Of a stretch of 43,351 nucleotides of DNA, positions 9,404 through 43,063 are shown one piece after another. Position numbers and translations under genes: made by a program. This DNA is from a virus, in the IMG/VR virus record IMGVR_UViG_3300020473_002181, positions 1-43,351 of that record; one strand, 5' to 3'. The notes under the pieces were generated by a model, which ran no database searches, was not told where the DNA came from, and saw only the letters and a list, made by a program, of their open reading frames with translations. Positions within the stretch are counted from its first letter, which is position 1, and each line of letters begins with the position of its first letter.

Positions 9404-9480
9404 TGGCTGGGGCGGTTGGACTCGAACCAACAACGGCCGGGGTAACAACCCGGTGCACCTGCCTGTGGCGCTTCACCCCA
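9404..9480 (-). tRNA. tRNA-Asn (GUU)
   Basis: A complete cloverleaf of 77 nt includes an encoded CCA (9404-9406). The acceptor stem is TGGGGTG/CGCCCCA, the D arm GCGC/GTGC, the anticodon stem CCGGG/CCCGG with loop TTGTTAC (anticodon GTT), and the T arm GTTGG/CCAAC with loop TTCGAGT. Discriminator G fits Asn. It is separated from tRNA-Thr by 6 nt and presumably processed from the same transcript as its protein-gene neighbours. Confidence 0.96.
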
Positions 9481-9486
9481 TCAATG

Positions 9487-9562
9487 TGGAGCCACCTATC
9501 AGACTTGAACTGATGACCTACGGTTTACAAAACCGTTGCTCTACCAACTGAGCTAAGGTGGC
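9487..9562 (-). tRNA. tRNA-Thr (UGU)
   Basis: A complete cloverleaf of 76 nt includes an encoded CCA (9487-9489). The acceptor stem is GCCACCT/AGGTGGC, the D arm GCTC/GAGC, the anticodon stem ACGGT/ACCGT with loop TTTGTAA (anticodon TGT), and the T arm ATCAG/CTGAT. The first base of the tRNA (9562) is also the last base of the TAG stop codon of the upstream VOC gene, so 5' processing must cut at the very end of that message. Confidence 0.97.
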
Positions 9563-9856: not shown

Positions 9857-10411
9857 TCAGACGCTGCCTTTTTCAACGGCCTCCTTGCGAAGATTTCCTT
9901 CTAGCACTGCCTTAGCTAGCTCAGAGCTTGATCTAATTTTTCCGCCGCCGACGTTAAAAATAACTTCACACCCAATGTCTTCACACAACTTAAACTCTGG
10001 GACATTTGAAGCTGAATCTCTATCACCGCCCTTAGTAAAGAAACTAGGCTTTAGAGCATCAAGTGCACCTGTTACAGTCTGACTACCGTCATCCCACCCT
10101 AGAACATAATCAACACCTTCCAAGCCTGCCACTATTTCCATTCGCTCCGAGTGGGGCATGAATGCATATCCTTTCTTGCGATATAAAAAGCCGTCACCGT
10201 TAACAATCACCACAAAAACACCCGGAGCACCCCTTCCTGTTGCCCCTCCTTCACACATGATTGCAGTTTCCTGAATGCACCTTAGATGCCCAATATGAAG
10301 CGGATCAAAACCGCCAGACGTACAATAGACATCAAAACCTAGAGAGCCTATTTCTGCTTTTAATTCTTCTATCTCGCTGTGGGAGAATATTTTCTTAACA
10401 GTGTGATTCAT
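9857..10411 (-). CDS. HIGH-type nucleotidyltransferase (RfaE-C/cytidylyltransferase-like) (184 aa)
   Basis: TSGGFDPLHIGHLRCI contains the HxGH motif of the cytidylyltransferase fold, and GGGKIRSSSELA supplies the (K)(I)(R/S)SS signature near the C-terminus. SERMEIVAGLEGVDYVLGW matches the middle of RfaE C-terminal/heptose-phosphate adenylyltransferases and glycerol-3-phosphate cytidylyltransferases. The 184-residue length suits one such domain. It probably activates a sugar or polyol phosphate as an NDP derivative; it could act with the epimerases at 33.5-35.5 kb. A ribosome binding site (AGGA) lies 8 bases before ATG 10411. Confidence 0.78.
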   Translation of the reverse strand: MNHTVKKIFSHSEIEELKAEIGSLGFDVYCTSGGFDPLHIGHLRCIQETAIMCEGGATGRGAPGVFVVIVNGDGFLYRKKGYAFMPHSERMEIVAGLEGVDYVLGWDDGSQTVTGALDALKPSFFTKGGDRDSASNVPEFKLCEDIGCEVIFNVGGGKIRSSSELAKAVLEGNLRKEAVEKGSV

Positions 10412-10825: not shown

Positions 10826-11530
10826 TTATGACTCATCAAGAGACATGTTAGAATCATAATCTTTATCATACGCGTCGTACATCTTTTTAATATATCCCGT
10901 TCGACGTAATAGCTTAAATGCAAGATTTTCTGAAGAATACTCTCCTGCTCTCTTTAGCCCGGCACTTCTCATATCTCTAAGCTTTTCTTTCATGTTTTCA
11001 ATTTTCTTCATTCTATTTGGGCTTTTTAGCATATTATCAATTTGTGCCATCATTGAGCGTGCCTTTTTCTTTGCTGCATCTAAATTTATTCGCGCTCCGC
11101 CCATGACAGGCGTATTAATCCACTCGTCATATAAGATGCTGAAAACACCTGTGGAATGATGTTCTTCAGAGCTATTTTGAGCATAAAGTTCTACTTCGTG
11201 TCCCTTTATTGTGATATTATGCTTATCGTTCCAGACTGTCTTTTTTGCACGCATGTAGTTCTCTACAAGTTCAATATTATCGTCAACAGACGCATAATCA
11301 ATAATTAAGTGTAAATCGATATCAGACTGATCGGTGTAATTAAAATTTGCCAAGCTTCCTGTAAGAGTAATATCTAAGATAGGCGCTGAAATATCAAGAA
11401 ACACGTAAAAATCGTAAGCAATTTTAAGTAGTTTTTGCCTTATCTGCTTGTCAATCTTTTTATCCTGCCAGATTTTAGGATGTAGATTTCTGTGTGGTGT
11501 TAGAGTTTTTATGTCAGATTTTTTAATCAT
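10826..11530 (-). CDS. Pol-beta-type nucleotidyltransferase (234 aa)
   Basis: ITLTGSLANFNYTDQSDIDL is the hG[GS]x(n)DxD signature of the DNA polymerase beta nucleotidyltransferase superfamily, and HEVELYAQ supplies a plausible third carboxylate. The C-terminal half is helical and basic (KKARSMMAQIDNMLKSPNRM). Members adenylate RNA, proteins or antibiotics. Phages carry many uncharacterised single-domain versions; the substrate is unknown. The N-terminus (HRNLHPKIW) resembles other phage members. Confidence 0.8.
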   Translation of the reverse strand: MIKKSDIKTLTPHRNLHPKIWQDKKIDKQIRQKLLKIAYDFYVFLDISAPILDITLTGSLANFNYTDQSDIDLHLIIDYASVDDNIELVENYMRAKKTVWNDKHNITIKGHEVELYAQNSSEEHHSTGVFSILYDEWINTPVMGGARINLDAAKKKARSMMAQIDNMLKSPNRMKKIENMKEKLRDMRSAGLKRAGEYSSENLAFKLLRRTGYIKKMYDAYDKDYDSNMSLDES

Positions 11531-12632: not shown

Positions 12633-13361
12633 TTAAACTTCAAATGAACTGTTATTTTCAAGATCTTCGTATATTCCAAATCGCAAACGAAGAATTTTCT
12701 CCTCTCTTTCAGTGAGCGAAGTAAAGCAAGACTCTATCGTTTTGATTACCTTCTCCCTATCGATTTCGCTTTCTACGTCTACGGCGTTTGTGTCCTGCAA
12801 TATTTCAGAAAATTTTCTGCCGTCTTCATCAGAGCCTGGTGAGGAATCAATAGAGCAAACACGCGATAGTGCAAAAGAAGCAATACAAGTCTCTATCATT
12901 TTTTTAGAAACGCCTAGGAGATCTGCAAGCTCTTCTTCTGTAGGCAGCTGGCCAAATTCCTCTTCATACTCCTTGTTAAGATTAGTAATCTTCCACATCA
13001 AGCCTGATGTATGTGATGGTATTCTTACTGTATTCTTATGTATGCTAATATGACGGCTCACAGCTTGCCTAATCCACCAGCTTGCGTATGTGCTAAACTT
13101 AAAGCCTTTGCGCCAATCAAATCTTTCAACTGCTTTCATCAATCCAATGTTTGACTCTTGGATAAGATCTTCTAAATCGCAGCCTCTCTTTGAGTATTTC
13201 TTAGCGATTGATACAGCAAGGCGAAGGTTTGATTGAATCATAATATCTCTTGCTAGATTGTCTCCCTTTTCTATCCTTTGAGATAGTTCTACCTCTTGCT
13301 CACGTGTTAAAAGTTTATGCTTACCAACATCTTTAAAATAAGACTCTAGTATTGAAGACAC
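12633..13361 (-). CDS. Sigma-70-family RNA polymerase sigma factor lacking region 4.2 (242 aa)
   Basis: Region 2 is clear at about residues 40-105 (DLIQESNIGLMKAVERFDWR, FSTYASWWIRQAV), with the -10-melting aromatics intact. Region 3 follows (about 111-165, with LPTEEELADLLGVS), and region 4.1 is LTEREEKILRLRFGI. The protein then ends SSFEV, precisely where 4.2 (TLEEV...) should start. Neither other frame restores it. It should direct polymerase to -10 or extended -10 promoters, or work with a partner, most simply the HTH protein encoded next. Start GTG 13361 has AGGAG 6 bases upstream. It presumably drives phage middle or late genes. Confidence 0.9.
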   Translation of the reverse strand: MSSILESYFKDVGKHKLLTREQEVELSQRIEKGDNLARDIMIQSNLRLAVSIAKKYSKRGCDLEDLIQESNIGLMKAVERFDWRKGFKFSTYASWWIRQAVSRHISIHKNTVRIPSHTSGLMWKITNLNKEYEEEFGQLPTEEELADLLGVSKKMIETCIASFALSRVCSIDSSPGSDEDGRKFSEILQDTNAVDVESEIDREKVIKTIESCFTSLTEREEKILRLRFGIYEDLENNSSFEV

Positions 13362-14763: not shown

Positions 14764-16565
<1,802 letters not shown>

Positions 16566-18468: not shown

Positions 18469-19403
18469 GAAATGGTAGGCTCAAGCCTTAGAGCTTCTGT
18501 ATCTGAAAGATTTTCTTGAGCATCCAGCCGAAGCGAATTTTTTGTAGCATTCTCAAGTTGAGAAATATACTCAGGCATAATGTCTGATTTAATCACGTTA
18601 ATTGTCTCTCTACCTATTAGTCTTTTTTCCTCTTCGGGCATGCTTGGATCAGTCTGAGTTGCAAGTGCGTAAAAATCAAGATCATCATCTCTAACATCTC
18701 TTCCAACATAGCGTAGAAAATCTGCTATATCTGAATGAGTAGCTCTAGGGGAAACAGCATCATAGTATCTGCTCCTTACTTCCTGTGCATCTTGTATAAT
18801 TGCATCAATGATATTGTTAACATCTACAGATGTTTCTATTTCAGCTTGAGGGACTTCTTCGCCTTCTTCATTGTTTTCTAAAATAAAACCTAGGCTATGA
18901 CTTTCGTGAACAAAGCTTTCCTTTATTGTTGGCAGACCAAGTCTGCGTATAAAGCTCTTTGTCCTACCCCTGATAGTAGGCTTAGGTTGTGCAAGAGGCT
19001 TGGCGGCATCTTTTTCGATATTCTTTTCTACCTGACCTGGCTCGAGACGGCTGCCGTCAGGCTTTTGCCTGTATTTATCCATTTCAGCATCTCTCTCTCT
19101 GTAGGCGGCAGATCTTTCAAGAAAAGCTGTTTGAGACTTTCTCATAATTTTGTCATAATTAGCTGGGCCGCTTGTAAAAAGACCTTCAAGCATTTCAAGC
19201 CCTACAGCACCAATTCTCCATGTGCCTTTAATTGGTGCCATAATAACTCGCCAGGCGCCTGAAACTATATTAGAGATTGCTCGTAAGCCTCCCTTAAAGT
19301 CTTGCCACCATTGCAAGCCTAGAACAAAACCCGGCGGGGCATCCCTAGCCATGTCAAATCGTGCGAGCTTTTCACCTATAAGCTGTTTGTCTTCACAATA
19401 CAT
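18450..19403 (-). CDS. Hypothetical protein, possible virion component (317 aa)
   Basis: No family was recognised. An N-terminal amphipathic/hydrophobic region (about 37-75, IVSGAWRVIMAPIKGTWRIG) is followed by a charged helix. A segment around residues 149-163 (KSFIRRLGLPTIKESF) matches the helix-plus-IKE tag seen at the N-termini of other proteins but is internal here. The C-terminal part is acidic and helical. The start overlaps the end of 19393-19659 by 11 bp, so it belongs to the operon 24454 to 18450. Confidence 0.6.
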   Translation of the reverse strand: MYCEDKQLIGEKLARFDMARDAPPGFVLGLQWWQDFKGGLRAISNIVSGAWRVIMAPIKGTWRIGAVGLEMLEGLFTSGPANYDKIMRKSQTAFLERSAAYRERDAEMDKYRQKPDGSRLEPGQVEKNIEKDAAKPLAQPKPTIRGRTKSFIRRLGLPTIKESFVHESHSLGFILENNEEGEEVPQAEIETSVDVNNIIDAIIQDAQEVRSRYYDAVSPRATHSDIADFLRYVGRDVRDDDLDFYALATQTDPSMPEEEKRLIGRETINVIKSDIMPEYISQLENATKNSLRLDAQENLSDTEALRLEPTISSLSFK

Positions 19404-19659
19404 CTAAGAGTCTTCTCTCTTCTCGTGTTCTCACAACAAGATTAATCCCTGTTGCCTTCTTATAATAATTAATAAGCTCTTTCTCAAAATCATTTAGCCA
19501 TTGCTCTTTTGTCTTAGGATCTCTTGTAGAAAAATTTTTTCTCAGAGTCGAGGGTATACCTCTCATTACTTCTTTTTTTACTGTTACCCAGTCATCACAA
19601 TCATCAACGTACGAAGCAACAAAATTAATCTGCTCTATAATTCTGTCTGGGATTATCAT
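19393..19659 (-). CDS. Hypothetical protein (88 aa)
   Basis: A soluble helical protein (IIPDRIIEQINFVASYVDDC; DFEKELINYYKKATG). No family was recognised. Its ATG overlaps the stop of the 1143-residue gene as ATGA, and its end overlaps the next gene, so it is tightly coupled to both. Confidence 0.6.
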   Translation of the reverse strand: MIIPDRIIEQINFVASYVDDCDDWVTVKKEVMRGIPSTLRKNFSTRDPKTKEQWLNDFEKELINYYKKATGINLVVRTREERRLLDVL

Positions 19660-22600
19660 TTTGTATCCTTGACCAGCGACTTCGCGTTAGGAAAATTCAT
19701 CTCGCTGACAGCTTTTGCAAAATCCTCTCTATCACTCGGATTATCCAGGTTAATACCAGACTGCTTAAGCTTTGTAAGCGGCTTGGCACTAAACTGAGTT
19801 CTCATGGCATAGTTAATCCCTCGATTATTTCTAAAGTAGACTGCTCCCTGAGCCGGTGGAAAATCAAATAGCACTGTTTTTCTACCTCCGCCCAGATCAA
19901 TTTCAAAAGCCGGATTAAGATGATACAATCCTTTGCCCTTAACTTGTACCACGCCCGCGCCCTTGTACATGTAATAGTCACGCAATGCGTCAGTTGAGAC
20001 TGTGTATGCCGCAAGCCTTAAGCCCGTGGGTGTATCATTAAGAATCTTGTGAACAACACTGACATATTCATCTCTAGTGATTGAACCTAATACAGATTCA
20101 ATAGGTGCAATTTCACCCGTGTCGACACGCTGTTTGTTAATACCATTGCGAATTGCAAGCATTCTCTTTTTGACCTTTGGCATGTCTGGGTCCATGTTGA
20201 CGAGGTTTGCTATGTCCTGATTTTGTGGCTTAGGATTAGATGCATAAAATTCGCCCTTGTCATAATCGTATCTCATTGTAGGCTCACCAGCTTGAGCGTT
20301 TGGAAGCTTTACTTCGATGCCGAGCTCACCGTTAGCAGACTTAACATAAACGTCTGAATAAGCATTGTCAGTCTCAGCTCTTACACTCATTCCTGCAGAC
20401 TGAAGCTGATCACCTATTTCATCTTCATAAATATAACCCGCTTTTCTCTGGCCGCCCGAAGTCCCTGCTGTGCCAAAGATAATCAATAGATTGTCAAGGC
20501 CGGGCATCATATAAGCTGTATATGTTCCACTTGGATTGGGTGACTCATGAGGTGCTAGTTCGACAACTGAATCGGTAGACCCGGGTAGAAGTTGTCTGTA
20601 GAGCTTGTTTACAATATCATTGAAATCATGGTTATCACCTGATCCAGCCTTTAGACCAAACCGCATAAGATTCAAACTTGGTGATGTCGTATTTACTTTC
20701 TCTATGTCACCGTTTAGCAGATCTGAACCTTGTAAAATATTGAGAATAATTCGTGCTTTTCCTGCAAATGATTTCTGTGCATCAAGCAAGGATTCACCAG
20801 CATCTGGCTCAGCAGACAATTCGTTTTCAGACTCTTGCAATATTTTTCTTACAGCAAGCCTCAGAGTGTTTTCAGCAACAGATTGACTATTGGTTGACTC
20901 AACAGCTTCTATCGCCTTCTGTGCTGCGCTCCTTGTTCTTTCTGACTTAGCACTAAGCCTATTACCAATGTAATCTTTGAAACGCTCCAGAGCCTCCCTG
21001 AAGTCATCTGTGTTATTTCTAGACATATATTTTATTAACTCCTCAAAGGTTCTAACCTCTGATTTTGGTGCACTTATTCCCAACAGGGGAAGATAGTTAT
21101 CTGGATCTACAATTCTACCCTCTGGGTCTTCTTTGCCGTTAACTTTTTTACGCCAGCCACCCGGAAAAGACAGAGTGTATTTAACAACAGCATCTCCTGA
21201 TGACTCTCTCTCGCCCTTGATTTTTGCGAGAAGTGATAGCATTAATTTGTGATACTCACCCTTGACTTTTCCTTCGCCGCCGCCGGACAGTTCCCAAGCA
21301 GTGTCGTCGATGCTTGAACTGGGAAATAGATCAACCTGAAAGAGCTGGCCAGTCTGAGGGTCTTGTACCATTATTGCAATTAACTGACCTAGTTTCATCA
21401 CCCTAGAAACACCCTCAACTAGCTCTTCGCTCAAGTACGGTGCTTTAAGCATTGTCTGATACAGCTTTTCTTTATCTGGCTCATCAACAATTAGGTCGAT
21501 ATCACCTATTTCTTTCTTATCTGTTCCTGTGCTTCCTGCGGGTAAGAAATTTATTCCAAGCGGACCAAGTAGATTTTTCTCAAGATCGGCCATGATTCTA
21601 TTAGCTTGCTCACGAGTAATCCTGTCTTCAGACGTAACAACGACTTTCCTACCAGTCTCATCTTGCTTTTTAAATGCGTTCCCACCTTCAGAAAGCATTT
21701 TTATAATAATTTTTTTTAAGGATTCTCTAAGCTCTTCTTTGTTTCCTTTATCAGGAAGTGATGCTTTTCCAAACCCTTCGCGGCCCATGGCGCTGCCAAA
21801 GAAACCGCGCATCTTATTGATAGGCGTGAACAAACCCGTTAATTTATAAGTCTTGCCATTATAGGTAAACACTATTCCTTCAGTTGCACGCTGAAAGAGG
21901 TCCTCATTAGCCTCGAGCCTTGCCAAAGCCACTCTGATTCCCTCTAGAGTCTTTGTGTCTCCTGCCTCAAGGCCAAAATCAAACCCTGACTCGAAAGCTG
22001 CTCTAACGTCTTTTATGAACCCTAGAAGCTCTTCCTGATTGCTAGCAGTAAGTGCAAGATCAAGCTTGTCGATAATCATTACACCTAGGCGCTGAATAAT
22101 ATTTTCTAACGGAATAATAGCTTCTTGCACAATACGAGGTTTAACTTTGTCTAGTGCTCTAAACTTCTGGTAATCTTCAGGAGACACTACTTTCTTTAGT
22201 CTTAGTGCTATTTTCCCCTTGCCCGTCATAAACCTGTCAGCAACATCAGAGACTAACTCAGTGGGAATAAAGTCATATTTTTCAGCCAAAAACTTTTCCA
22301 ACCTAGCCTTAATATAGTCACCAACTGTATTTTTGCTGACAGACATGCCGACTTCGTTCACAACAGATTCAAGATCTTTCTCAAGCTGTTCAATTTGCGC
22401 ATCATCTTGTTCAAGACCTTTAATAAGCCTGGCAGTAGGAACTTCGTCCATGGTAAAAGCTTCAGTTGACGCCTGCTTCATTTCAGACTTAAAAGCATTA
22501 AGTGCGTCTTGATTAACAGATTCATCAGTTAACGGAATTGGAAGCACAGTGCGAAGTGAGTCTTCATCATATAGAATTGTATTTGGATTCTTTGACACCA

Positions 22601-23087
22601 TGATCTGAGATGCTATTACAACCTCACCGTTTCTAAAAAGCGAGTCTTGGTAAGAGAGTGCAACTGGTTCAAGTGCCTCATAGGCAATAGCGAAACCTTC
22701 GGCAATATTTGAACGCCCTCCAGTGTAGGTGGACATGATTTCTTCAAGAGTCATTCCGCCACCCTTGCTGCCAGTTCGAATTGCTTCTAGCTTTTTATCT
22801 TTAGCTGCCTGTCCCTGAAGATCCATCTTGGTGAAAAATCTCAGTCGACCATCAACAACGGTAAACGCAAGAAATTGGCCGTCCATCTTTTCCTGGACGT
22901 TCTCTAGTTTTCCTTCAAGCCCGAGGCGTCCAATCTCAACGATGTCGCTTAGGGGCATTGAGAACTCTTCATAGAGATTATAAATGTGTGCTTCTTCTCC
23001 TGGTGCACCGGCAGCTTCCGCTTGCTCGTTAACAGAAAATCTAGTAGCTGCTCTGTATATCGATGCAGGTGTAATTAATATTGCCAT
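19656..23087 (-). CDS. Three-module enzyme: ligase-type NTase, pol-beta NTase and PD-(D/E)XK nuclease (1143 aa)
   Basis: Module 1 (about 1-450) has covalent nucleotidyltransferase motifs: KMDG (Lys67 nucleophile, motif I), FRNGEVVI (151-158, motif III), TEGIVF (402-407, motif IV) and YKLTG (414-418, motif V), with a long helical insert between III and IV. Module 2 (about 470-720) has a pol-beta-type site: GS 518-519, Asp529-x-Asp531 and a third Asp586. Module 3 (about 760-1143) has a PD-(D/E)XK-like core: SDVYVK (Asp912) and GIEVKLP (Glu925, Lys927). Each boundary carries a basic helix ending in LxE (LSE 465-467, LQE 750-752), like the N-terminal tags elsewhere. It may be a polyprotein of nucleic-acid repair enzymes packaged in the virion. 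AGAGG precedes the ATG. Each domain call is from motifs only. Confidence 0.7.
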   Translation of the reverse strand: MAILITPASIYRAATRFSVNEQAEAAGAPGEEAHIYNLYEEFSMPLSDIVEIGRLGLEGKLENVQEKMDGQFLAFTVVDGRLRFFTKMDLQGQAAKDKKLEAIRTGSKGGGMTLEEIMSTYTGGRSNIAEGFAIAYEALEPVALSYQDSLFRNGEVVIASQIMVSKNPNTILYDEDSLRTVLPIPLTDESVNQDALNAFKSEMKQASTEAFTMDEVPTARLIKGLEQDDAQIEQLEKDLESVVNEVGMSVSKNTVGDYIKARLEKFLAEKYDFIPTELVSDVADRFMTGKGKIALRLKKVVSPEDYQKFRALDKVKPRIVQEAIIPLENIIQRLGVMIIDKLDLALTASNQEELLGFIKDVRAAFESGFDFGLEAGDTKTLEGIRVALARLEANEDLFQRATEGIVFTYNGKTYKLTGLFTPINKMRGFFGSAMGREGFGKASLPDKGNKEELRESLKKIIIKMLSEGGNAFKKQDETGRKVVVTSEDRITREQANRIMADLEKNLLGPLGINFLPAGSTGTDKKEIGDIDLIVDEPDKEKLYQTMLKAPYLSEELVEGVSRVMKLGQLIAIMVQDPQTGQLFQVDLFPSSSIDDTAWELSGGGEGKVKGEYHKLMLSLLAKIKGERESSGDAVVKYTLSFPGGWRKKVNGKEDPEGRIVDPDNYLPLLGISAPKSEVRTFEELIKYMSRNNTDDFREALERFKDYIGNRLSAKSERTRSAAQKAIEAVESTNSQSVAENTLRLAVRKILQESENELSAEPDAGESLLDAQKSFAGKARIILNILQGSDLLNGDIEKVNTTSPSLNLMRFGLKAGSGDNHDFNDIVNKLYRQLLPGSTDSVVELAPHESPNPSGTYTAYMMPGLDNLLIIFGTAGTSGGQRKAGYIYEDEIGDQLQSAGMSVRAETDNAYSDVYVKSANGELGIEVKLPNAQAGEPTMRYDYDKGEFYASNPKPQNQDIANLVNMDPDMPKVKKRMLAIRNGINKQRVDTGEIAPIESVLGSITRDEYVSVVHKILNDTPTGLRLAAYTVSTDALRDYYMYKGAGVVQVKGKGLYHLNPAFEIDLGGGRKTVLFDFPPAQGAVYFRNNRGINYAMRTQFSAKPLTKLKQSGINLDNPSDREDFAKAVSEMNFPNAKSLVKDTK

Positions 23088-23088
23088 T

Positions 23089-23919
23089 TTAACCTCTAAT
23101 TATACCGCGAATTAAAGCTCTAAGATGCGCTTCTGCAACTTGAATCGATTCCTCTTGATCTGAAAGTATTTGAATTATCTTGTCTTTTTCGTCATTGTTC
23201 AGAAAAGGGGGTAGAAATCTTTTTGCCTGGTCTGCAGTTTTATGTGATGATGCAAGATTTCTAACCTGGGTCCCTCTTACAGTTTGCCTTGCGGTGACTT
23301 CTTCATCGTCAAGCTCTTCACCCTTACTAGCATAAAAATCTTTCAATGCCTCTCGAGCTTCAACTTCGCCTTGTGCCATTAGCTGGTCAAGTTTTTCAGC
23401 ATAGTCATCTGGGCTAGACGGTACCGCACCACCAAATTGAATCTGTCCTGCTTGAACTGCATCTTTAAACTTTGGACTTCGCATGTACGGGCGCATTGAA
23501 TCCCCGTCACCATAGATTGTTACCTTTTCTATCTCGCCTGGATCATCGACAAAGTCCTCAAGTGTCTTAAAGATCGCTGTGACAGGTGCACGAATTGCAG
23601 CTAAGTTACCTTGAGTATCTTTAGCCTGGCTCTGAACAAGGACAACTTCAACTTCCGGGATGCGCTCTAGAGCAGACTTGTATATATCAAATATCTCTCT
23701 GGCAACTCTTTCGTCATATACTCGGCCAGAGTCTCCAATTGATCTAAATTTTTGGCGAGCTTTTAAAGGCTGGCCTTTCTTTCCATATCTTGTAGGCTCA
23801 AGCTGTTGCATTCCATAAAACAAGTAAACTTTATCATTATCTCTAATGGCATCTGCAAGCTTTGCAAAGTGACCTGTTGTAAAGGGCTTAAATCCTCCGC
23901 CATAAAGTCCTAACTTCAT
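23089..23919 (-). CDS. Cytidylyltransferase/NMNAT-fold nucleotidyltransferase (276 aa)
   Basis: MKLGLYGGGFKPFTTGHFAK has the (H/T)xGH nucleotide-binding motif at the N-terminus, IYGDGDSMRPYM a central substrate region, and RGTQVRNLA the C-terminal signature in place of (I)SST. This is the phage branch of the NMN adenylyltransferase/cytidylyltransferase fold. The substrate is unknown. The C-terminus (HLRALIRGIIRG) resembles the basic tag helices of neighbours. It is coupled to the gene upstream by ATGA and lies 1 bp before the 1143-residue enzyme, suggesting shared work on nucleotides or RNA ends. Confidence 0.75.
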   Translation of the reverse strand: MKLGLYGGGFKPFTTGHFAKLADAIRDNDKVYLFYGMQQLEPTRYGKKGQPLKARQKFRSIGDSGRVYDERVAREIFDIYKSALERIPEVEVVLVQSQAKDTQGNLAAIRAPVTAIFKTLEDFVDDPGEIEKVTIYGDGDSMRPYMRSPKFKDAVQAGQIQFGGAVPSSPDDYAEKLDQLMAQGEVEAREALKDFYASKGEELDDEEVTARQTVRGTQVRNLASSHKTADQAKRFLPPFLNNDEKDKIIQILSDQEESIQVAEAHLRALIRGIIRG

Positions 23920-24212
23920 TTCTTAACCTTTTTTTGAAAGCTTTTCTCAGACAGAAGTGCATTTTTTGCTGCAAACCTCTCTGCCTTTCTCTTCATATGT
24001 CGCAGGCTATCAATTGCCCTGCTTACCGTGTAGCGCTCTTTTCTCTCCGACCTTTTCATATTCCTTCTGATAAAGTCAAGTTCACCAATTACACGGTCAA
24101 GCTCAGCAAGATGTTTTCTTGAACCGTAAGGCACAGAAACTCCTCTTCTTGTTTTAACTTTGCTCTCCAGCAATGCACTTATGTATTTTCTTAAAAAGAC
24201 GTCTTGTTTCAT
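23916..24212 (-). CDS. Basic protein with N-terminal helix tag (98 aa)
   Basis: ATG 24212 has AGAGG 7 bases upstream, so the TTG two codons earlier is rejected. It begins MKQDVFLRKYISALLESKVK, the recurring helix with an LLE end, followed by a very basic helical body (RRNMKRSERKERYTVSRAID). It may bind DNA inside the head or in assembly; the function is unknown. Confidence 0.6.
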   Translation of the reverse strand: MKQDVFLRKYISALLESKVKTRRGVSVPYGSRKHLAELDRVIGELDFIRRNMKRSERKERYTVSRAIDSLRHMKRKAERFAAKNALLSEKSFQKKVKK

Positions 24213-24241
24213 TGACAAACCTCTATCTCTAATTATAAAGG

Positions 24242-25401: not shown

Positions 25402-25758
25402 CTAAGAGACGATTAACTTCACCTTGCAATTTGCATCTTGAATATTGCTTATGTCTATGCAGATATCAGAAAAGCTATCTTTTTTAATTTTTAAAATACT
25501 ATTTTCTTCATATTTTATTTCAATTCCAAAAATCGTATCGCCAGATATTAATCTAGATGCTATCTCCTGTGAGCACATTGTTGTTATCTCTGCTCCCTGA
25601 GCACTTCTTTTAAAGCCGGTAATATTTGATATAACACTCTCGTCTTCGAAGTCAATAAAGCAAGAAAAAAGCGTGGGAGTTGTTACTAAGTCATAGAACT
25701 CTGTCATATCAACACGCTCCATCAGAGACTCACTCATCATGACAGAGGCATCATTCAT
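25402..25758 (-). CDS. Hypothetical beta-rich protein with LME N-terminus (118 aa)
   Basis: It begins MNDASVMMSESLMERVDMTE, with a short helix ending in LME, then alternating strands (TLFSCFIDFEDESVISNITG; CKVKLIVS). No family was recognised. The ATG overlaps the stop of the PCD-like gene as ATGA. Confidence 0.55.
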   Translation of the reverse strand: MNDASVMMSESLMERVDMTEFYDLVTTPTLFSCFIDFEDESVISNITGFKRSAQGAEITTMCSQEIASRLISGDTIFGIEIKYEENSILKIKKDSFSDICIDISNIQDANCKVKLIVS

Positions 25759-26159
25759 ATGCTCTTTTCTCTTATATTTGAAAGATAGTATTGCAGGTCA
25801 TCGTAAAGATCATCTATAAATTTTGTCAGCTCTATGTCTAGCTCAGTAACTGCGTCTACATCATGTGTATAAGATTCAATCTTGACATTTCTATTTTTTA
25901 TTTCTATGTCTGCATGATGTCCCACTGATTCCTGATGCTTTAATATCTGGCTGATGAACTCTCTTAGAAGCGATGGATTTCTAAACTTAAACACTCTCCC
26001 AAGTCTTTCTGGGCTTGAAAGTGTAGTCCACTCTGACTCAGATACGCTAACGGGCAAAGAGTCAACTTCTTTTCCACCTAGGACGATATCTAAAGACCTT
26101 GATGAAAAAGAAGACTCAGTTAAAAGCTCGTTATCTACATAGCTGAGAAGAGATTTCAT
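25755..26159 (-). CDS. Pterin-4a-carbinolamine dehydratase-like protein with LxE leader (134 aa)
   Basis: From about residue 43 the protein follows the PCD/DCoH family: EWTTL, RVFKFRNPSLLREFISQIL, then the active-site pair His81-His82 in VGHHADIEI and His99-Asp100 in YTHDVDAVTELDIELTKFID. The 17-residue spacing between the second and third His equals that of the known enzyme. PCD recycles hydroxylated pterin cofactor or serves as a dimerisation factor. A 15-residue N-terminal leader (MKSLLSYVDNELLTE) precedes it, like the virion-type tags. No pterin-dependent hydroxylase is visible here, so the role is unclear. Confidence 0.8.
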   Translation of the reverse strand: MKSLLSYVDNELLTESSFSSRSLDIVLGGKEVDSLPVSVSESEWTTLSSPERLGRVFKFRNPSLLREFISQILKHQESVGHHADIEIKNRNVKIESYTHDVDAVTELDIELTKFIDDLYDDLQYYLSNIREKSI

Positions 26160-36413: not shown

Positions 36414-39400
36414 CTATAGCTCAATCTGTCTCATTTTATACGATGAAGTAGAGCATCCCCAAGACTCAGACGATGCTACCTCGGCAATCCATATTGTGTA
36501 TAGCTTTGGCTTTACTTTAAACTTAGACCAAACTCTAAGCCAGGAACTTTCAAATGTATTGTCAATCACCTTCATTCTATAAAAAACTTTACCATTCTTT
36601 GTCTCTCTCTCCTCTATAGACTGAATGCAAAACCATGCTATGTCTTTTTCACTCCCTTGCAAATCTGTAATAGGTCTTACATTTGATTTTCTAATCTTTT
36701 CAATAATCTTAGGAGGAAAAACTAAAGATTCATCTGCGCCTGCCATGAGGCTCACACTGAAATCAATCTTGGTTTCCCTAGACCAGTCAGGTGATCCGTG
36801 CACTTCTTTAATTTTTTCATCTATAAAGATTGGTACTTTTAAACCTTGCTTTAAGATTTTCTTTGCCGCTGTTTTTGTCATACCGTGTCGACCTTTTTTT
36901 AGAAGATCATAGCTGGGGACAATGATATCATAAAGCTGCCTGTGATTTTGTATGTGTCCAGAATTAAACTCTCTAAGAGACGAGAATGCCTCAACTTTAC
37001 ACAGAGAATCGAAGCAGGTCTTATTCATCTTTGAAGGCTTCCATTTACCGTCTTCAGTAAACATCATATCATCAAGGCTAGAGAAGGGACGTCTCTCCAT
37101 AATTTCAGCAACAGCAGCATCTCCGACACCTTTGATTGCAGTTAGGGGTGGTACAAAACCTCCACGATCGTCACTATAGACCCAAACATCTGAAGAAGCA
37201 TTAATATCAGGAGGAAGAATTGTATAGCCTAGAGATTTAATTTCAGAGATTACTTTTCCAAACTTATTTGAACCATTTTGGGTTTGCAAGCACGTCGCTA
37301 GCCATTCTTTTTCATAGTAGGTATGCAGCCAAGCTGAATAATAAGAGTCAATAGCGTAGGATACAGCATGTGACTTGTTAAAACCATAGCCTGAAAAGAA
37401 CTCAATTGTTTCATAAAGCTTTTCGGCTTTACCTCTGTCCATGCCGGATATTTCAACTGCCCCGTTAACAAATTTTTTCCGAAGATCAACTCTTTCTTGC
37501 ACTTTTGCTGCATTAGAATCAAGAGATTTCTTAACAAGTGTCTTACGCATCTTGTCTGATGCGCCTTTATCAAAATTGGCAAGACGTTGTGCCAGAAGCA
37601 TAAACTGCTCTTGAAAGGAAATAAAGCCATAAGTTTCACTTAAAATATCTTTAATAACTGGGTGATCGTATTTAATTGGATTCCCGCTTTCAACAGATTT
37701 TTTAGCTTTAACATATTTTCTATGTACACCTGCAGATAAAGGTCCAGGTCGATAAATAGCAGTAATGGTTGCCAGCTCTTCAATAGTTCTAGGCTTGGCG
37801 GACATACAGAAGTTTCTTGCACCCTGTTGTGTAAACTGAAAGACTTGTACGAACCTTCCGCTGTGATAAACGTGTTCCCACACTTTCTGATCTTCAAGCG
37901 TGTTATATCGACAATTCATATTTTTATCAAAGAACTTTTGAATATCTGCAAACGCTGGTGCGGGATTACCTTGCTTTCTCAAAATAAGTCTTACACAATC
38001 CTCAACCATTTTAAGAGTTGTCAACCCGAGAAAGTCGAACTTTAGAAAGCCGTTAGGCTCTAAGTGTCTAAAGTTCATACCTTCTGACCAGGGTGTTTGA
38101 AGCTCGCCTCGTACTTTAATAACAGGCATATACTTCTCAAGGTCTGGGCAAATTAGAACTCCCCCAGCATGTCGACCGATTGACCTAGACTCCATAAATA
38201 AGTTTTGAACGTGCTCATTTACCTTTGGATACTTATCCATGAATTCAGCATATTTTGGTGAGTACTTCATGCAATCTTCGTGAGTTAGGACATATGTCGA
38301 CCTTTCCTCATGATCTCCCATGGCCTTGTGCATAACATCTTTCTCAAGAGTATTAGTCATAGCATTTACTTCTCCAAAATCAATACCATAAAACTTAGAG
38401 ACATCCTTAATCAATGACTTAAGCTTTAGCGTATTAAAGTTTGAAACTGGAACTACAGACTCCTCACCAAAAAGCTCACGAGAGGCGTCAATTAAGACGT
38501 CCCTATCGCCTGCGTCAGTATCAATATCAGGCCAGCCAGCTTTTGCCCTATGTAAGAATCTTTCCCACAAGAGGCCGTACTTAATCGGATCAGTGGTAGT
38601 AATCCCAAGCAAATAGTTAACAAGTGAGCCTGCACCTGAACCTCTACCTGGGCCGATAATTGTGCTTTGAGATGCTAAATCAAAAACCTTTGTCATTGTT
38701 AAAAAGTAATTCTCGAAACCAAGATACTTGATATCATCTAGCTCCATCTTGGCACGCTCAACATATTCGGGATCCAAATGAAGATTTTCATCAACCAGGG
38801 CACTCTTGACTCTGCTTGCCAGCTGATTAAAAGCAGAATTCTCAGAAGTACCAAACTTAGGAAGCTTTGCCTCTTCATCAAACCAGACATCCTCGCACTG
38901 TTCCCAGGCAATATCATAAGATCTTTCAATAGCATCAGATATTATCTGATCTTTACCTGCATAAAAATCATAATTTGGAACATGAAGTTTATACTCTTCC
39001 CACATCTGTTCTGCGTTTTTAGGATAAAGCTCACATTTTAAATCTTCAAAAGCAGGTAATGTAGGCATGGTATCGCCTCTTGCGCCCATTCGACCTAGCT
39101 TTCGGTAAAGCTCTCGTGCTTCCCACATATTCCGGCTATAATAGTGACTATCTGCAGTTGCTACTAGCGGGATCCCTGTTTTTTCATGAAGTGCTATAAG
39201 GTGACGGTTTGTTTTATGCTGCATCGACAGAGAGTTAAATTGAATTTCAAGATTGAAGTTGTCTCGACCCACAGCATCTATGAATCTATCAGACATGTTT
39301 TCTAAATCTAGCATTATATCTGAATCAGTCTTTCCTGTCGCGCTGCCCCTTGCAATCAAAGAAGCAGGATAACCACCAATACATGCAGTGCTTACAACAA

Positions 39401-39974
39401 GGCCTTCACCGTGAGTTTTAAGAAGATTATAGTCAATCCTGGGAAATCTATAAAAGCCGTCTGTGTAAGACTTTTTAACTAGTGTAAAAAGATTCTGCAA
39501 GCCTATTTGATTTTTTGCGAGGACGACAAGATGGTATCTTCTCTTCCAGTCATTTTTCTCAAAGTCATTCTTTGTCTCCTCTTCGTTTTCAATGACGAGG
39601 CCGCCGGAAATCTCATCTTCAGAATTTATATCAGTAGACTCTTTGGCTTTTTTCTCAGACCTTGCTGCTCGAACTTCTTCTCGATGTGCCTCGTAGGAGA
39701 CCCGCCACTCAGAGAGAGATGGGACAAAATAAAATTCAACACCATATATTTGACGATATTCTCTACCTTGCTTTTTTAGCTTTTTGGCATACGTATGAGC
39801 GTGTGCAAGACCGTTACCATTTCCATGGTCAGTTAATGCCCATGCATTCATCTCATTGGAAAGAACAAAGTCAATGTGCTGGCTTGGATATCCCAGACCG
39901 TCATAGGGGCTTCCAGTCCCACAGTGTGCGTGAAGACCTACAAATCTTTTGGGTAAAATAAGCTTAGATGACAA
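36414..39974 (-). CDS. dnaE: DNA polymerase III alpha subunit (C-family replicative polymerase) (1186 aa)
   Basis: PHP domain (about 10-280), then the palm with GPGRGSGAGS (441-450), PDIDTD (catalytic Asp483, Asp485) and KFDFLGL (Asp647), fingers, a helix-hairpin-helix and a C-terminal OB fold (about 1115-1165). All nine PHP metal ligands known from Thermus/mycobacterial DnaE can be placed (His15, His17, Asp25, His50, Glu80, His148, Cys198, Asp275, His277), so it probably proofreads by itself. Start TTG 39974 has GGAGAG about 7 bases upstream. It would replicate the phage genome independently of host PolIII alpha. It follows a terminator, forming a unit separate from dnaK. Confidence 0.96.
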   Translation of the reverse strand: MSSKLILPKRFVGLHAHCGTGSPYDGLGYPSQHIDFVLSNEMNAWALTDHGNGNGLAHAHTYAKKLKKQGREYRQIYGVEFYFVPSLSEWRVSYEAHREEVRAARSEKKAKESTDINSEDEISGGLVIENEEETKNDFEKNDWKRRYHLVVLAKNQIGLQNLFTLVKKSYTDGFYRFPRIDYNLLKTHGEGLVVSTACIGGYPASLIARGSATGKTDSDIMLDLENMSDRFIDAVGRDNFNLEIQFNSLSMQHKTNRHLIALHEKTGIPLVATADSHYYSRNMWEARELYRKLGRMGARGDTMPTLPAFEDLKCELYPKNAEQMWEEYKLHVPNYDFYAGKDQIISDAIERSYDIAWEQCEDVWFDEEAKLPKFGTSENSAFNQLASRVKSALVDENLHLDPEYVERAKMELDDIKYLGFENYFLTMTKVFDLASQSTIIGPGRGSGAGSLVNYLLGITTTDPIKYGLLWERFLHRAKAGWPDIDTDAGDRDVLIDASRELFGEESVVPVSNFNTLKLKSLIKDVSKFYGIDFGEVNAMTNTLEKDVMHKAMGDHEERSTYVLTHEDCMKYSPKYAEFMDKYPKVNEHVQNLFMESRSIGRHAGGVLICPDLEKYMPVIKVRGELQTPWSEGMNFRHLEPNGFLKFDFLGLTTLKMVEDCVRLILRKQGNPAPAFADIQKFFDKNMNCRYNTLEDQKVWEHVYHSGRFVQVFQFTQQGARNFCMSAKPRTIEELATITAIYRPGPLSAGVHRKYVKAKKSVESGNPIKYDHPVIKDILSETYGFISFQEQFMLLAQRLANFDKGASDKMRKTLVKKSLDSNAAKVQERVDLRKKFVNGAVEISGMDRGKAEKLYETIEFFSGYGFNKSHAVSYAIDSYYSAWLHTYYEKEWLATCLQTQNGSNKFGKVISEIKSLGYTILPPDINASSDVWVYSDDRGGFVPPLTAIKGVGDAAVAEIMERRPFSSLDDMMFTEDGKWKPSKMNKTCFDSLCKVEAFSSLREFNSGHIQNHRQLYDIIVPSYDLLKKGRHGMTKTAAKKILKQGLKVPIFIDEKIKEVHGSPDWSRETKIDFSVSLMAGADESLVFPPKIIEKIRKSNVRPITDLQGSEKDIAWFCIQSIEERETKNGKVFYRMKVIDNTFESSWLRVWSKFKVKPKLYTIWIAEVASSESWGCSTSSYKMRQIEL

Positions 39975-40047: not shown

Positions 40048-41922
40048 TTAGGAAGTTTGAGTGGCAGTGCCGCCCTCTGTAACAACTTCAGGTTCTGGGG
40101 GAGTGACCTGATCTGCAAGGGGTTCAGTTTTGGCATGAAGCTCTGCGGCTGCAGCTATTAGAGTTTTCTGCAAGCTTTCTAAAACTGTTTCTATTTCCCC
40201 TATGTCTTCGCTAGAAAAAGCTGCTCGACCTTTCTCAGCTGCCTCTTCAACAGAGGATTTTGTATTAGGAGACATGTTATCTGCGTCTCTATTGAGAAGC
40301 TGATCCGCCTGATATACGAGACCGTCTAGAGCATTTCTCTTTTCAAGAAGCTGGTGTCTGGCATTATCCTCTTCTTCGTACTGTTCTGCTTCAGCAATCA
40401 TTTGATCAATCTCTTCTTTTGAAAGAGTACTGCCCTCTTGAATAGTAATAGACTGCTCTTTGCCAGTGGACTTGTCTTTTGCAGATACATTTACTATTCC
40501 ATCTGCGTCTATATCAAAGCTAACTTCAATCTGCGGTACACCCCTGGGTGCAGGTGTAATTTCAGATAGCTGAAACTGTCCCATAGTCTTGTTATCATTA
40601 GCAAACTTCCGCTCACCTTGCAAAACATGAATATCAACAGTTGTCTGACCGTCTGTAGATGTGCTGAACACTTCTGACTTCTTGCACGGAATTGTTGTAT
40701 TTCTTTCAATGAGAACAGTGTTTACACCCCCGAGAGTCTCAATCCCAAGAGAGAGAGGTGTAACATCTAGAAGAAGAAGATCATTAACATCTCCCGTAAA
40801 AACACCGCCTTGAACTGCAGCACCGAGAGCAACAACTTCGTCAGGATTTACAGAGTTATTTGACTTTTTCTCAAAAAAGTTTTCTACTGCCTGTCTTACA
40901 AGCGGGATTCTTGTAGATCCACCGACAAGAACTACTTCATCTATATCTTTTACCTTTAGCTTGGCATCTTTCAGTGCCCTTCTTGCAGGTATAAGTGTCC
41001 TCTCAACAAACGAGCCAATCATTCTTTCAAACTCAGATCGAGAAAGAACCTTCATAAGGTGCTTAGGACCTGTACTGTCAGCAGTCAAGAACGGCAAGTT
41101 AATCTCTGTTTGTTGTGCACTTGAAAGCTCTATCTTGGCTTTTTCCGAAGCTTCTTTCAACCTTTGCAAGACCATGTTATCAGAGCTAACGTCAATTCCC
41201 GTCTCATCTTTAAACGTATCTATCAGCCAGCTTGTTATCATCTGATCTACATCATCTCCTCCAAGCTGTGTATCTCCGTTGGTGCTCAGAACCTCAACTA
41301 CATTATCAGAAACGTCTAATATCGAAATATCAAATGTTCCTCCTCCCAGATCATAGACAGCAATTTTTTGATCTTTTGTTTTGTCTAGACCGTATGCAAG
41401 CGCTGCAGCTGTAGGTTCATTAATTATTCTCTTAACCTCAAGGCCGGCAATCTTACCTGCTTCCTTAGTTGCCTGACGCTGAGCATCATTAAAATATGCT
41501 GGAACTGTGATAACAGCCTCTTCGACCTTACACCCAAGGTAAGACTCAGCATCTCTCTTTAGCTTTTGCAAAACCATTGAGCTTATCTGCTGGGGTGTGT
41601 ATGCTTTTTTTGCAAGCTTAATATTACATGTTCCATCTTTTCTTCGAGTCACCTTATACGGGACATTTGACACATCTTCTTTTACGTCCTTGTGTTTCAT
41701 CCCGATAAATCTTTTCGCAGAAAAGACAGTATTTTCAGGGTTGGTAACAGCTTGTCTTCTGGCAGCTTGCCCAACAAGTCTTTCACCGTCACTAGCAAAT
41801 GCAACAACTGAAGGTGTTGTGCGAGAACCTTCCGAATTTGTGATTACCTTGGGTGATTCACCGTCCATTACAGAAACAACAGAGTTAGTTGTCCCTAGAT
41901 CAATACCGATTATTTTTGCCAT
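40048..41922 (-). CDS. dnaK: DnaK chaperone (Hsp70) (624 aa)
   Basis: A full-length Hsp70: [11 protein letters not shown] at the N-terminus, [10 protein letters not shown] (about 193-202), GGSTRIP (about 337-343), and a substrate-binding domain with [13 protein letters not shown] and SDGQT-type loops. The lid is present, but the C-terminal EEVD-like tail is replaced by a Pro/Glu/Thr-rich end. It probably works with the phage DnaJ directly upstream; no GrpE is seen here. AAGGAG lies 7 bases before ATG 41922. It would aid replication-complex or capsid assembly. Confidence 0.97.
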
Positions 41923-42010: not shown

Positions 42011-43063
42011 CTATTTTTTTCTTGATTGTTCAAAGTCTTTTAGAATTTTTATTGATTCTTCAGTGAGGCTCTGCGGCGTTTTTATGTGGATTTGCACATA
42101 CAATGAGCCTCTTTGTTTTGAGTCTACAGCAACAGGTAGTCCCATATTATTAATCTTAAAGTCTGTGTGAGTTTGCATCCCAGCAGGTATGTGTAGAGAC
42201 GCCTTCTCTCCATTTATTCCTTCAACTTGAATGTCTCCGCCTAGGATCGCATGCTCAATCTCAATCTGCTTTACTGTAAACAAGTCTGGCCCGTTTCTTT
42301 CAAACCTTCTATCGTCAACAATATTGACAACAAGATAGGCATCGCCTGGTGAATGACAGCCTTTTTCGAAATTTCCAAAGCCGGCGACTCTCATCTGTGT
42401 GCCGTGTGATACACCGGGCGGTATGTCAAGATCTATGCTCTTAATCTCTGGTCTGACTCCAGCGCCAGAACACAGGTCACACGGAGACTCTATAAGTGTG
42501 CCTGTACCTTCACATACCGGGCAGGGTCGGACAACAGTCATGAATCCTGCCTGGATTGCGACTTCACCTTTTCCGCCACACTGTGAACACGTTTTTATAC
42601 TGCTCGGGTCTTTTGCACCAGCGCCATCACACTTTTCACAGACAATGTTTCTTTTAACCTGAACCTTTCTACTAACACCTCGCAAGACATCCTGTAGCGT
42701 GATGTTAATCTGCATGCTTATGTCAGTACCTCTCTGCTGCCTTCTTCCTGAGCCTCGCCTTCCACCAAACATGTCGCCAAAGCCAAATCCTTGAAACATT
42801 TCAGAAAAAGACTCGAATATGTCTCCTGAAAAACCTGCTCCCTCACCGACCGTCCCAAACCTGTCGTACTGGCTCTTTTTCTCTTCGTCTGACAATATTG
42901 AGTAAGCCTCAGACACCTCTTTGAATCTCTTCTCTGACTCAGAGTCACCTTGATTTCTATCTGGGTGATATTTTAACGCAAGCTTTCTGTAAGATTTTTT
43001 TATATCTTCTTGAGAAGCATCTCTAGATAGCCCTAATATCTGATAGTAATCCGGTGCTTGCAT
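42011..43063 (-). CDS. dnaJ: DnaJ co-chaperone, type I (350 aa)
   Basis: J domain with HPD at 33-35 (KYHPDRN), a Gly/Phe-rich stretch (about 72-105), four CxxCxGxG zinc repeats (CEKCDGAG, CSQCGGKG, CPVCEGTG, CDLCSGAG) and the C-terminal client-binding domains. It is complete and divergent from host-type DnaJ only in detail. It stimulates DnaK ATPase. AGGAAG lies 4 bases before ATG 43063. It is followed by dnaK after an 88-bp gap with no terminator, so the two are probably co-expressed. Confidence 0.97.
   Translation of the reverse strand: MQAPDYYQILGLSRDASQEDIKKSYRKLALKYHPDRNQGDSESEKRFKEVSEAYSILSDEEKKSQYDRFGTVGEGAGFSGDIFESFSEMFQGFGFGDMFGGRRGSGRRQQRGTDISMQINITLQDVLRGVSRKVQVKRNIVCEKCDGAGAKDPSSIKTCSQCGGKGEVAIQAGFMTVVRPCPVCEGTGTLIESPCDLCSGAGVRPEIKSIDLDIPPGVSHGTQMRVAGFGNFEKGCHSPGDAYLVVNIVDDRRFERNGPDLFTVKQIEIEHAILGGDIQVEGINGEKASLHIPAGMQTHTDFKINNMGLPVAVDSKQRGSLYVQIHIKTPQSLTEESIKILKDFEQSRKK

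Follow-up and report, generated by a model that had tools for sequence, protein, structure and literature searches.

What would a single viral protein carrying the motifs of three different nucleic acid enzymes be for? The question is raised by P0001, the 1143-residue product of an open reading frame (ORF) at positions 19656–23087 (minus strand, ATG start) of the IMG/VR virus record IMGVR_UViG_3300020473_002181, the whole 43,351-nucleotide stretch of which was analyzed and is referred to here as the window. P0001 is a putative polyprotein composed of a ligase module, a family X polymerase module, and a putative PD-(D/E)XK module, and we propose, with a probability of about 0.5, that it is packaged in the phage head, cut into its component enzymes, and injected for end repair. 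Full-length relatives with shared gene order are present in six IMG/VR viral contigs (best-segment identity 53–85%), and a pattern scan of 84,980 species genomes found no full-length P0001. Pfam, PHROGs, and NCBIfam gave nothing above noise for the 1143-residue protein; a Pfam match to Peptidase_M16 (E = 0.048) was judged to be chance, and a metagenome-assembled genome contig (L137) with 94% identity over residues 265–447 was rejected because it resembles the edge of a chimeric contig. The motifs of three enzyme types that the original prediction had placed in order along the chain (K67-M-D69-G70, EGIVF 403–407, YKLTG 414–418, G518-S519, D529, D531, D586, D912, E925, and K927) are all found at those residues and are invariant in an alignment with five relatives, to which P0001 is 62–86% identical. 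Short motifs by themselves could arise by chance in a chain of 1143 residues. Chance is discounted for modules 1 and 2 because of conservation, fold (ligase and family X polymerase), and profile matches (family X polymerase); for module 3, the case consists of conservation and a weak fit of modeled secondary structure.

Module 1 (residues 34–430; 21798–22988, minus strand) carries motif I (K67-x-D-G), motif IV (EGIVF, 403–407), and motif V (YKLTG, 414–418). Among 33 ligase domains, most of them ∼25% identical to the window copy, residues K67, D69, G70, E403, G404, V406, F407, K415, and G418 are invariant. An AlphaFold model from this alignment, built without three phage-collection rows, reached a mean predicted local distance difference test score (pLDDT) of 79 and a predicted template modeling score of 0.70. 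T4 RNA ligase 1 ranked first when the model was compared with the PDB by Foldseek (E = 6e-4), and the top rows from VIA-align were T4 RNA ligase 2 (Z = 8.6), African swine fever virus (ASFV) ligase (7.6), the Naegleria RNA ligase NgRnl (7.5), and fungal tRNA ligase (7.1), with polynucleotide ligases filling almost the whole list of 50 rows. Such Z scores are of middling size, yet they fall on the same fold and the motifs take their expected places. Among predicted viral proteins, the best matches to the model were phage proteins annotated as having a “cytidyltransferase-like domain” (E = 1e-20), with annotated RNA ligases next in rank. Motifs I and IV are separated by a helical insertion of ∼200 residues. 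The ligase-type module claimed from the sequence is thus placed by structure prediction in the ligase fold, an assignment that we regard as almost certain, and by its predicted activity module 1 is a polynucleotide ligase of the covalent nucleotidyltransferase superfamily. A PDB profile match of the ligase alignment to ribosomal protein eS6 was judged to be chance or an effect of composition.

Module 2 (residues 470–725; 20913–21680, minus strand) contains the GS pair (518–519) and the GDxD...D triad on the palm (D529, D531, and D586). Its profile matched PDB sequences of pol lambda (7e-4) and ASFV PolX (4e-3), and its model matched pol lambda by Foldseek (1.7e-5, probability 1.0, ∼209 aligned columns). 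VIA-align returned Z scores of 9–10 with pol beta (10.2), TtPolX, TdT, pol mu, and ASFV PolX (9.1). Past the third aspartate, the order of the module resembles the C-terminal subdomain; the VIA-align match reaches residue 231 of the model with a root mean square deviation of ∼8 Å, so that the geometry there is uncertain. A CCA-adding type was rejected, because family X polymerases fill the structure list. Searched down to E = 1, P0001 gave no match to a Pfam family of the RlaP kind, which does not in itself exclude such a relation. The pol-beta-type assignment is therefore borne out and refined to family X-like rather than RlaP or CCA type, and module 2 is very probably, judging from its model, a DNA polymerase of family X by predicted activity. 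Elsewhere in the window, a second pol-beta-type nucleotidyltransferase signature (GSLANFNYTDQSDIDLH) occurs at 10826–11530 (minus strand).

Module 3 (residues 770–1143; 19659–20780, minus strand) has its putative PD-(D/E)XK core at 20193–20450, around E888, D912, and E925-x-K927. These residues are invariant and lie on a helix-strand-strand-strand (alpha-beta-beta-beta) pattern in a low-confidence model (pLDDT ∼40). Profile searches gave no family match for the module, although PHROG 26930, a family without known function, weakly matches its core; no PD-(D/E)XK row appeared in the VIA-align lists, which hardly probed this region of the model. A PDB profile match of the nuclease alignment to eS1 was judged to be chance or an effect of composition. 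Because of the poor model and the missing family match, the PD-(D/E)XK label stays a motif-level proposal: the residues named in the original prediction are present and invariant, the fold is unconfirmed, and a PD-(D/E)XK nuclease is a somewhat favored, putative identity. Profile scans of viral contigs with the family X polymerase and nuclease modules returned only the six known loci, so that the two modules are either uncommon or diverged beyond the reach of the profile method.

The ligase, by comparison, belongs to a large family with a nearly constant companion. P0001 starts one base after the end of an upstream gene for a 276-residue, NMNAT-like nucleotidyltransferase of the HIGH type (23089–23919, minus strand), which ends in a basic helix (LRALIRGIIRG). 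In the close relatives L001, L002, and L004, the two genes form a single ORF of 1429–1439 residues. Of 79 ligase family loci examined for the nucleotidyltransferase, 56 had enough flanking DNA to be informative; it lies in the same ORF as the ligase in 47 of these and in a neighboring ORF in 8, counts of loci rather than of independent events because the set includes near-duplicates. The lone exception, L057, ends soon after the ligase, and the order of the two domains is reversed in L080 and L034. The suggestion that this neighbor is a partner of P0001 is accordingly strengthened by both fusion and linkage (55 of 56). The nucleotidyltransferase family carries the GxFxPxxxGH loop and the SGTxxR motif of NMNAT and other HIGH adenylyltransferases, with RGTQVR in place of the latter in the window copy, and its nearest PDB sequences are NadM-type NMNATs (8e-4). 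The window copy is divergent and matches family models weakly, under their curated cut-offs; its sequence suggests an NMNAT-like enzyme, as a predicted activity. Another HIGH-type nucleotidyltransferase (GGFDPLHIGH) is encoded at 9857–10411 (minus strand), close to tRNA-Asn and tRNA-Thr genes (9404–9562).

Scanned with a profile, viral contigs yielded at least 552 stretches of the ligase family. Among 50,697 phage records the family occurs only in the cultured Microcystis phage Mel-JY01 and two uncultured huge phages. Pfam and PHROGs recognize only the nucleotidyltransferase part of these proteins and not the ligase. The family is abundant in environmental phages yet has gone nearly unseen.

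How three enzymes in one chain could act is suggested by the boundaries between them. In T4, cleavage by the prohead protease gp21 follows the motif L/I-x-E (PMC9026906). The N-terminal peptide of P0001 (residues 1–21; 23025–23087, minus strand) ends in VNE (VSE, INE, or LSE in relatives) and is a putative targeting peptide with a cleavage site. The boundary 1 helix (residues 451–469; 21681–21737, minus strand) ends in MLSE/GG, where the slash marks a predicted prohead protease site after E467, and the boundary 2 helix (residues 737–756; 20820–20879, minus strand; AENTLRLAVRKILQE/SENE) has a predicted site after E752. The basic helices ending in LxE that had been noted at both module boundaries are therefore present, and they are kept in relatives, as MLSE/GG, ILSE/GG, KIKE/GG, or LVIE/GG at boundary 1 and as ILQE, LLYE, IFKE, VLFE, or MLHE at boundary 2. 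Across the wider family, 34 of the 38 distinct ligase domains come immediately after [LIVMF]xE/GG. In P0001 and its full-length relatives, linkers hold roughly four times as many LxE sites with a small or polar next residue as domains do (1.46 versus 0.35 per 100 residues, counted over related rows). Basic terminal helices are enriched in the ORFs of relatives, both N-terminally (11 versus 2.3 expected) and C-terminally (9 versus 1.6).

Whole modules also come and go at such sites. An extra module of ∼230 residues in L005 sits exactly at boundary 1, flanked by two LxE-type sites, and the near-identical pairs L077/L070, L058/L073, and L081/L073 differ by whole modules (an HD module in L077, inserts in L058 and L081) beside xxE/A or xxE/G sites. 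The extra module of L005 (9390–10050) has a GGTVGIGHFA stretch reminiscent of lysozyme-type enzymes and no Pfam match. A T4-type S77 prohead protease and a gp23-type capsid are encoded in the L001 contig and in the genomes of L007, L008, L010, L034, L037, and L039, and in Mel-JY01 and L008 the ligase is encoded within the terminase-portal-protease cluster or next to it. The two features of T4-type capsid-targeted proteins are accordingly a terminal peptide with L/I-x-E, found in the P0001 family, and an S77 protease, found in the contigs of relatives and not in the window. The LxE sites at module boundaries support the polyprotein idea of the original prediction, and P0001 is probably a polyprotein processed in the phage head.

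Sister polyproteins of the ligase family combine the same pair with other partners. The 1453-residue protein at L076:1757–6118 joins a CCA-type nucleotidyltransferase (3.6e-51), an HD domain, the HIGH nucleotidyltransferase, and the ligase; the 1907-residue protein at L142:835–6558 has a CCA-type nucleotidyltransferase head together with the HIGH nucleotidyltransferase and the ligase. The L051 polyprotein has an RNase_T exonuclease module, and that of L008 a ParB-like module whose relatives are found among the internal virion proteins of F116-like phages. The recurring theme is nucleic acid end processing, adding, and sealing, with RNA-type and DNA-type partners both represented. There are further variants. 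The gene after the ligase at L010:10280–12241 and L040:9359–12190 opens with a second KxDG-like motif (SENLDGST and TEKLSGSA), possibly a second divergent ligase, and in L010 it also carries a HIGH nucleotidyltransferase. A 792-residue protein at L034:7563–9941 has a metallopeptidase-like motif (HEICHHWQ) before the ligase and then the HIGH nucleotidyltransferase, in reversed order.

From these observations we infer the following course of events. The terminal peptides and the intermodule linkers ending in (L/I)xE would target the chain into the prohead, where a T4-type prohead protease would cut it into separate enzymes: a polynucleotide ligase, a family X polymerase, and a probable PD-(D/E)XK nuclease, joined by the NMNAT-like nucleotidyltransferase from its separate gene in the window. 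The enzymes would enter the host with the genome and could process, fill, and seal broken nucleic acid ends before phage gene expression. Candidate substrates are the incoming phage DNA and tRNA cleaved by host defense. End repair is a reasonably probable purpose of the polyprotein, and the balance tips slightly toward DNA as the main substrate of the window version.

Several points weigh against this proposal. The 43-kb window itself lacks genes for a prohead protease and a capsid protein, and within the window alone N-terminal tags are not clearly enriched (3 versus 1.0 expected from shuffles, with a maximum of 5). Module 3 is without a confident fold in its low-confidence model. Motif V of the ligase reads YKLTG, in which K415 is invariant and the second lysine of the classical KxK is absent, and no C-terminal oligonucleotide/oligosaccharide-binding (OB) domain is seen, the ligase domain ending ∼25 residues past motif IV in most relatives. 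Because of these last two departures the activity could differ, and classical ligase chemistry is, from the sequence, likely but not assured. Finally, the choice between DNA and RNA is not decided by sequence, and DNA repair and tRNA repair are close rivals.

As a DNA break or gap repair kit akin to LigD or the ASFV enzymes, the family X polymerase would fill, the nuclease trim, and the ligase seal the incoming genome or its ends. This is a credible alternative, if short of an even chance: the fold of module 2 is shared with the minimal ASFV PolX, the ASFV ligase is among the best matches of module 1, and polymerase, ligase, and putative nuclease share one chain. Yet the ligase is nearer to RNA ligases and has no OB domain, and Ku, considered as the mark of Ku-dependent nonhomologous end joining, was not found in 14 records, many of them fragments. 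As an RNA repair kit, the ligase would instead seal tRNAs cut by anticodon nucleases of the host, module 2 would restore lost nucleotides on RNA in the manner of RlaP, and module 3 or other modules would trim ends. Most of the best structural matches of the ligase are indeed RNA ligases, sister polyproteins bear CCA tRNA nucleotidyltransferase (L076 and L142), HD, and RNase_T modules, and cooperation of an RNA ligase with a Pol-beta enzyme (RlaP) has been published (PMC7824862). Module 2, however, matches family X DNA polymerases, with no Pfam match, and neither a kinase nor a phosphatase or 2H domain turned up in the window system; we hold RNA repair to be possible on a tentative footing.

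Delivery of an NAD+ counter-defense, in which the NMNAT-like enzyme would be the chief effector by restoring NAD+ and the ligase would be NAD+-dependent or a side passenger, would account for the near-universal linkage of nucleotidyltransferase and ligase and for NadM-type NMNATs being the closest solved relatives. It is unlikely, given that the expected partner NadV occurs in only 3 of the 14 records (many of them fragments) and that the window nucleotidyltransferase is divergent and under curated cut-offs. That the folds are reused as catalytically dead virion filler, as the altered motif V and the location amid virion-type genes in relatives might indicate, is very improbable, since the alignments show no change in the catalytic residues of either module 1 or module 2, which points to selection for catalysis.

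Extended beyond P0001, the head-processed polyprotein proposal leads to a more speculative picture. The family could represent an unrecognized, very abundant system of environmental T4-like phages, in which virion-delivered polyproteins are cut by the prohead protease and a new ligase family always travels with an NMNAT-like enzyme. Sealing might be NAD+-coupled, the NMNAT remaking NAD+ from the nicotinamide mononucleotide released by the ligase, and the end-repair modules would be interchangeable, P0001 having a family X polymerase and a nuclease where other members have a CCA-adding enzyme, HD, or an exonuclease. If true, a large class of environmental phage proteins labeled only “cytidyltransferase-like” would be explained, a ligase family would be new to Pfam and PHROGs, a family X DNA polymerase would be carried by a phage, and phages would inject preformed enzymes for repair in the form of a polyprotein that can be cut. 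Head processing predicts new protein N termini after LxE in virions.

Other genes surround P0001. Downstream, a conserved gene for an 88-residue protein (19393–19659, minus strand) overlaps P0001 by four bases and is kept in all relatives. Upstream, a small protein (23916–24218, minus strand) has an N-terminal tag of like kind (FLRKYISALLESK) and is syntenic in L003, L005, and L006. A pterin-4a-carbinolamine dehydratase domain (Pfam, 8.8e-15) is encoded at 25755–26159 (minus strand), in a protein that also has an LxE-like tag closing its N terminus. On inspection of the sequence, GroEL, DnaK, and DnaJ-like proteins, all full length, lie on the minus strand (14764–16392, 40048–41922, and 42011–43063), and a DnaE-like polymerase (36414–39974) and a sigma-70-like factor (12633–13361) are also present.

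The original prediction knew of no described system with this set of enzymes. Within the reach of our searches this is true of the exact set, but not of its elements, which have precedents. The minimal PolX and the ligase of ASFV are among the best structural matches of P0001, but they are separate proteins, and the ASFV nuclease is different. Bacterial LigD, which acts in nonhomologous end joining, unites polymerase, nuclease-type, and ligase activities in a single chain; its polymerase is an archaeo-eukaryotic primase rather than a family X enzyme, its nuclease-like domain is also nonhomologous to that of P0001, and no Ku was found in the 14 records searched, many of them fragments. Phage RNA repair (PMC7824862) likewise places a ligase and a Pol-beta superfamily nucleotidyltransferase (RlaP or a CCA enzyme) in one pathway, whereas module 2 of P0001 is family X-like, and its ligase is invisible to Pfam and PHROGs, has a large helical insertion, and is partnered by an NMNAT-like enzyme. 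A fusion of HIGH nucleotidyltransferase and ligase is not mentioned in passages of surveys of jumbo phages and viral NAD+ systems (PMC7824862, PMC9503650). The “cytidyltransferase-like domain-containing proteins” of uncultured Caudovirales and WWT39297 of Mel-JY01 belong to the same ligase family and have the HIGH nucleotidyltransferase, for which alone they are annotated; WWT39297 is without the family X polymerase and module 3. Polyvalent proteins, described from phages and conjugative elements (Iyer et al. 2017, PMC5512222), join many effector domains in one chain and are presumed to be delivered with DNA; passages of that work describe no ligase-polymerase polyvalent protein and state that the 2H domains were never found associated with RNA ligases. 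P0001 resembles them in having several effector domains per chain, with delivery predicted, and its relative L008 carries a ParB-like module, but the modules of the P0001 family are split by T4-type LxE sites and centered on the ligase-nucleotidyltransferase pair. In this respect the family recalls T4 Alt and the T4 internal proteins, whose short terminal peptides ending in L/I-x-E are removed by the S77 prohead protease and which are packaged and injected (PMC9026906). The T4 proteins are single enzymes or inhibitors, whereas P0001 would, if packaged as predicted, bring several enzymes per chain.

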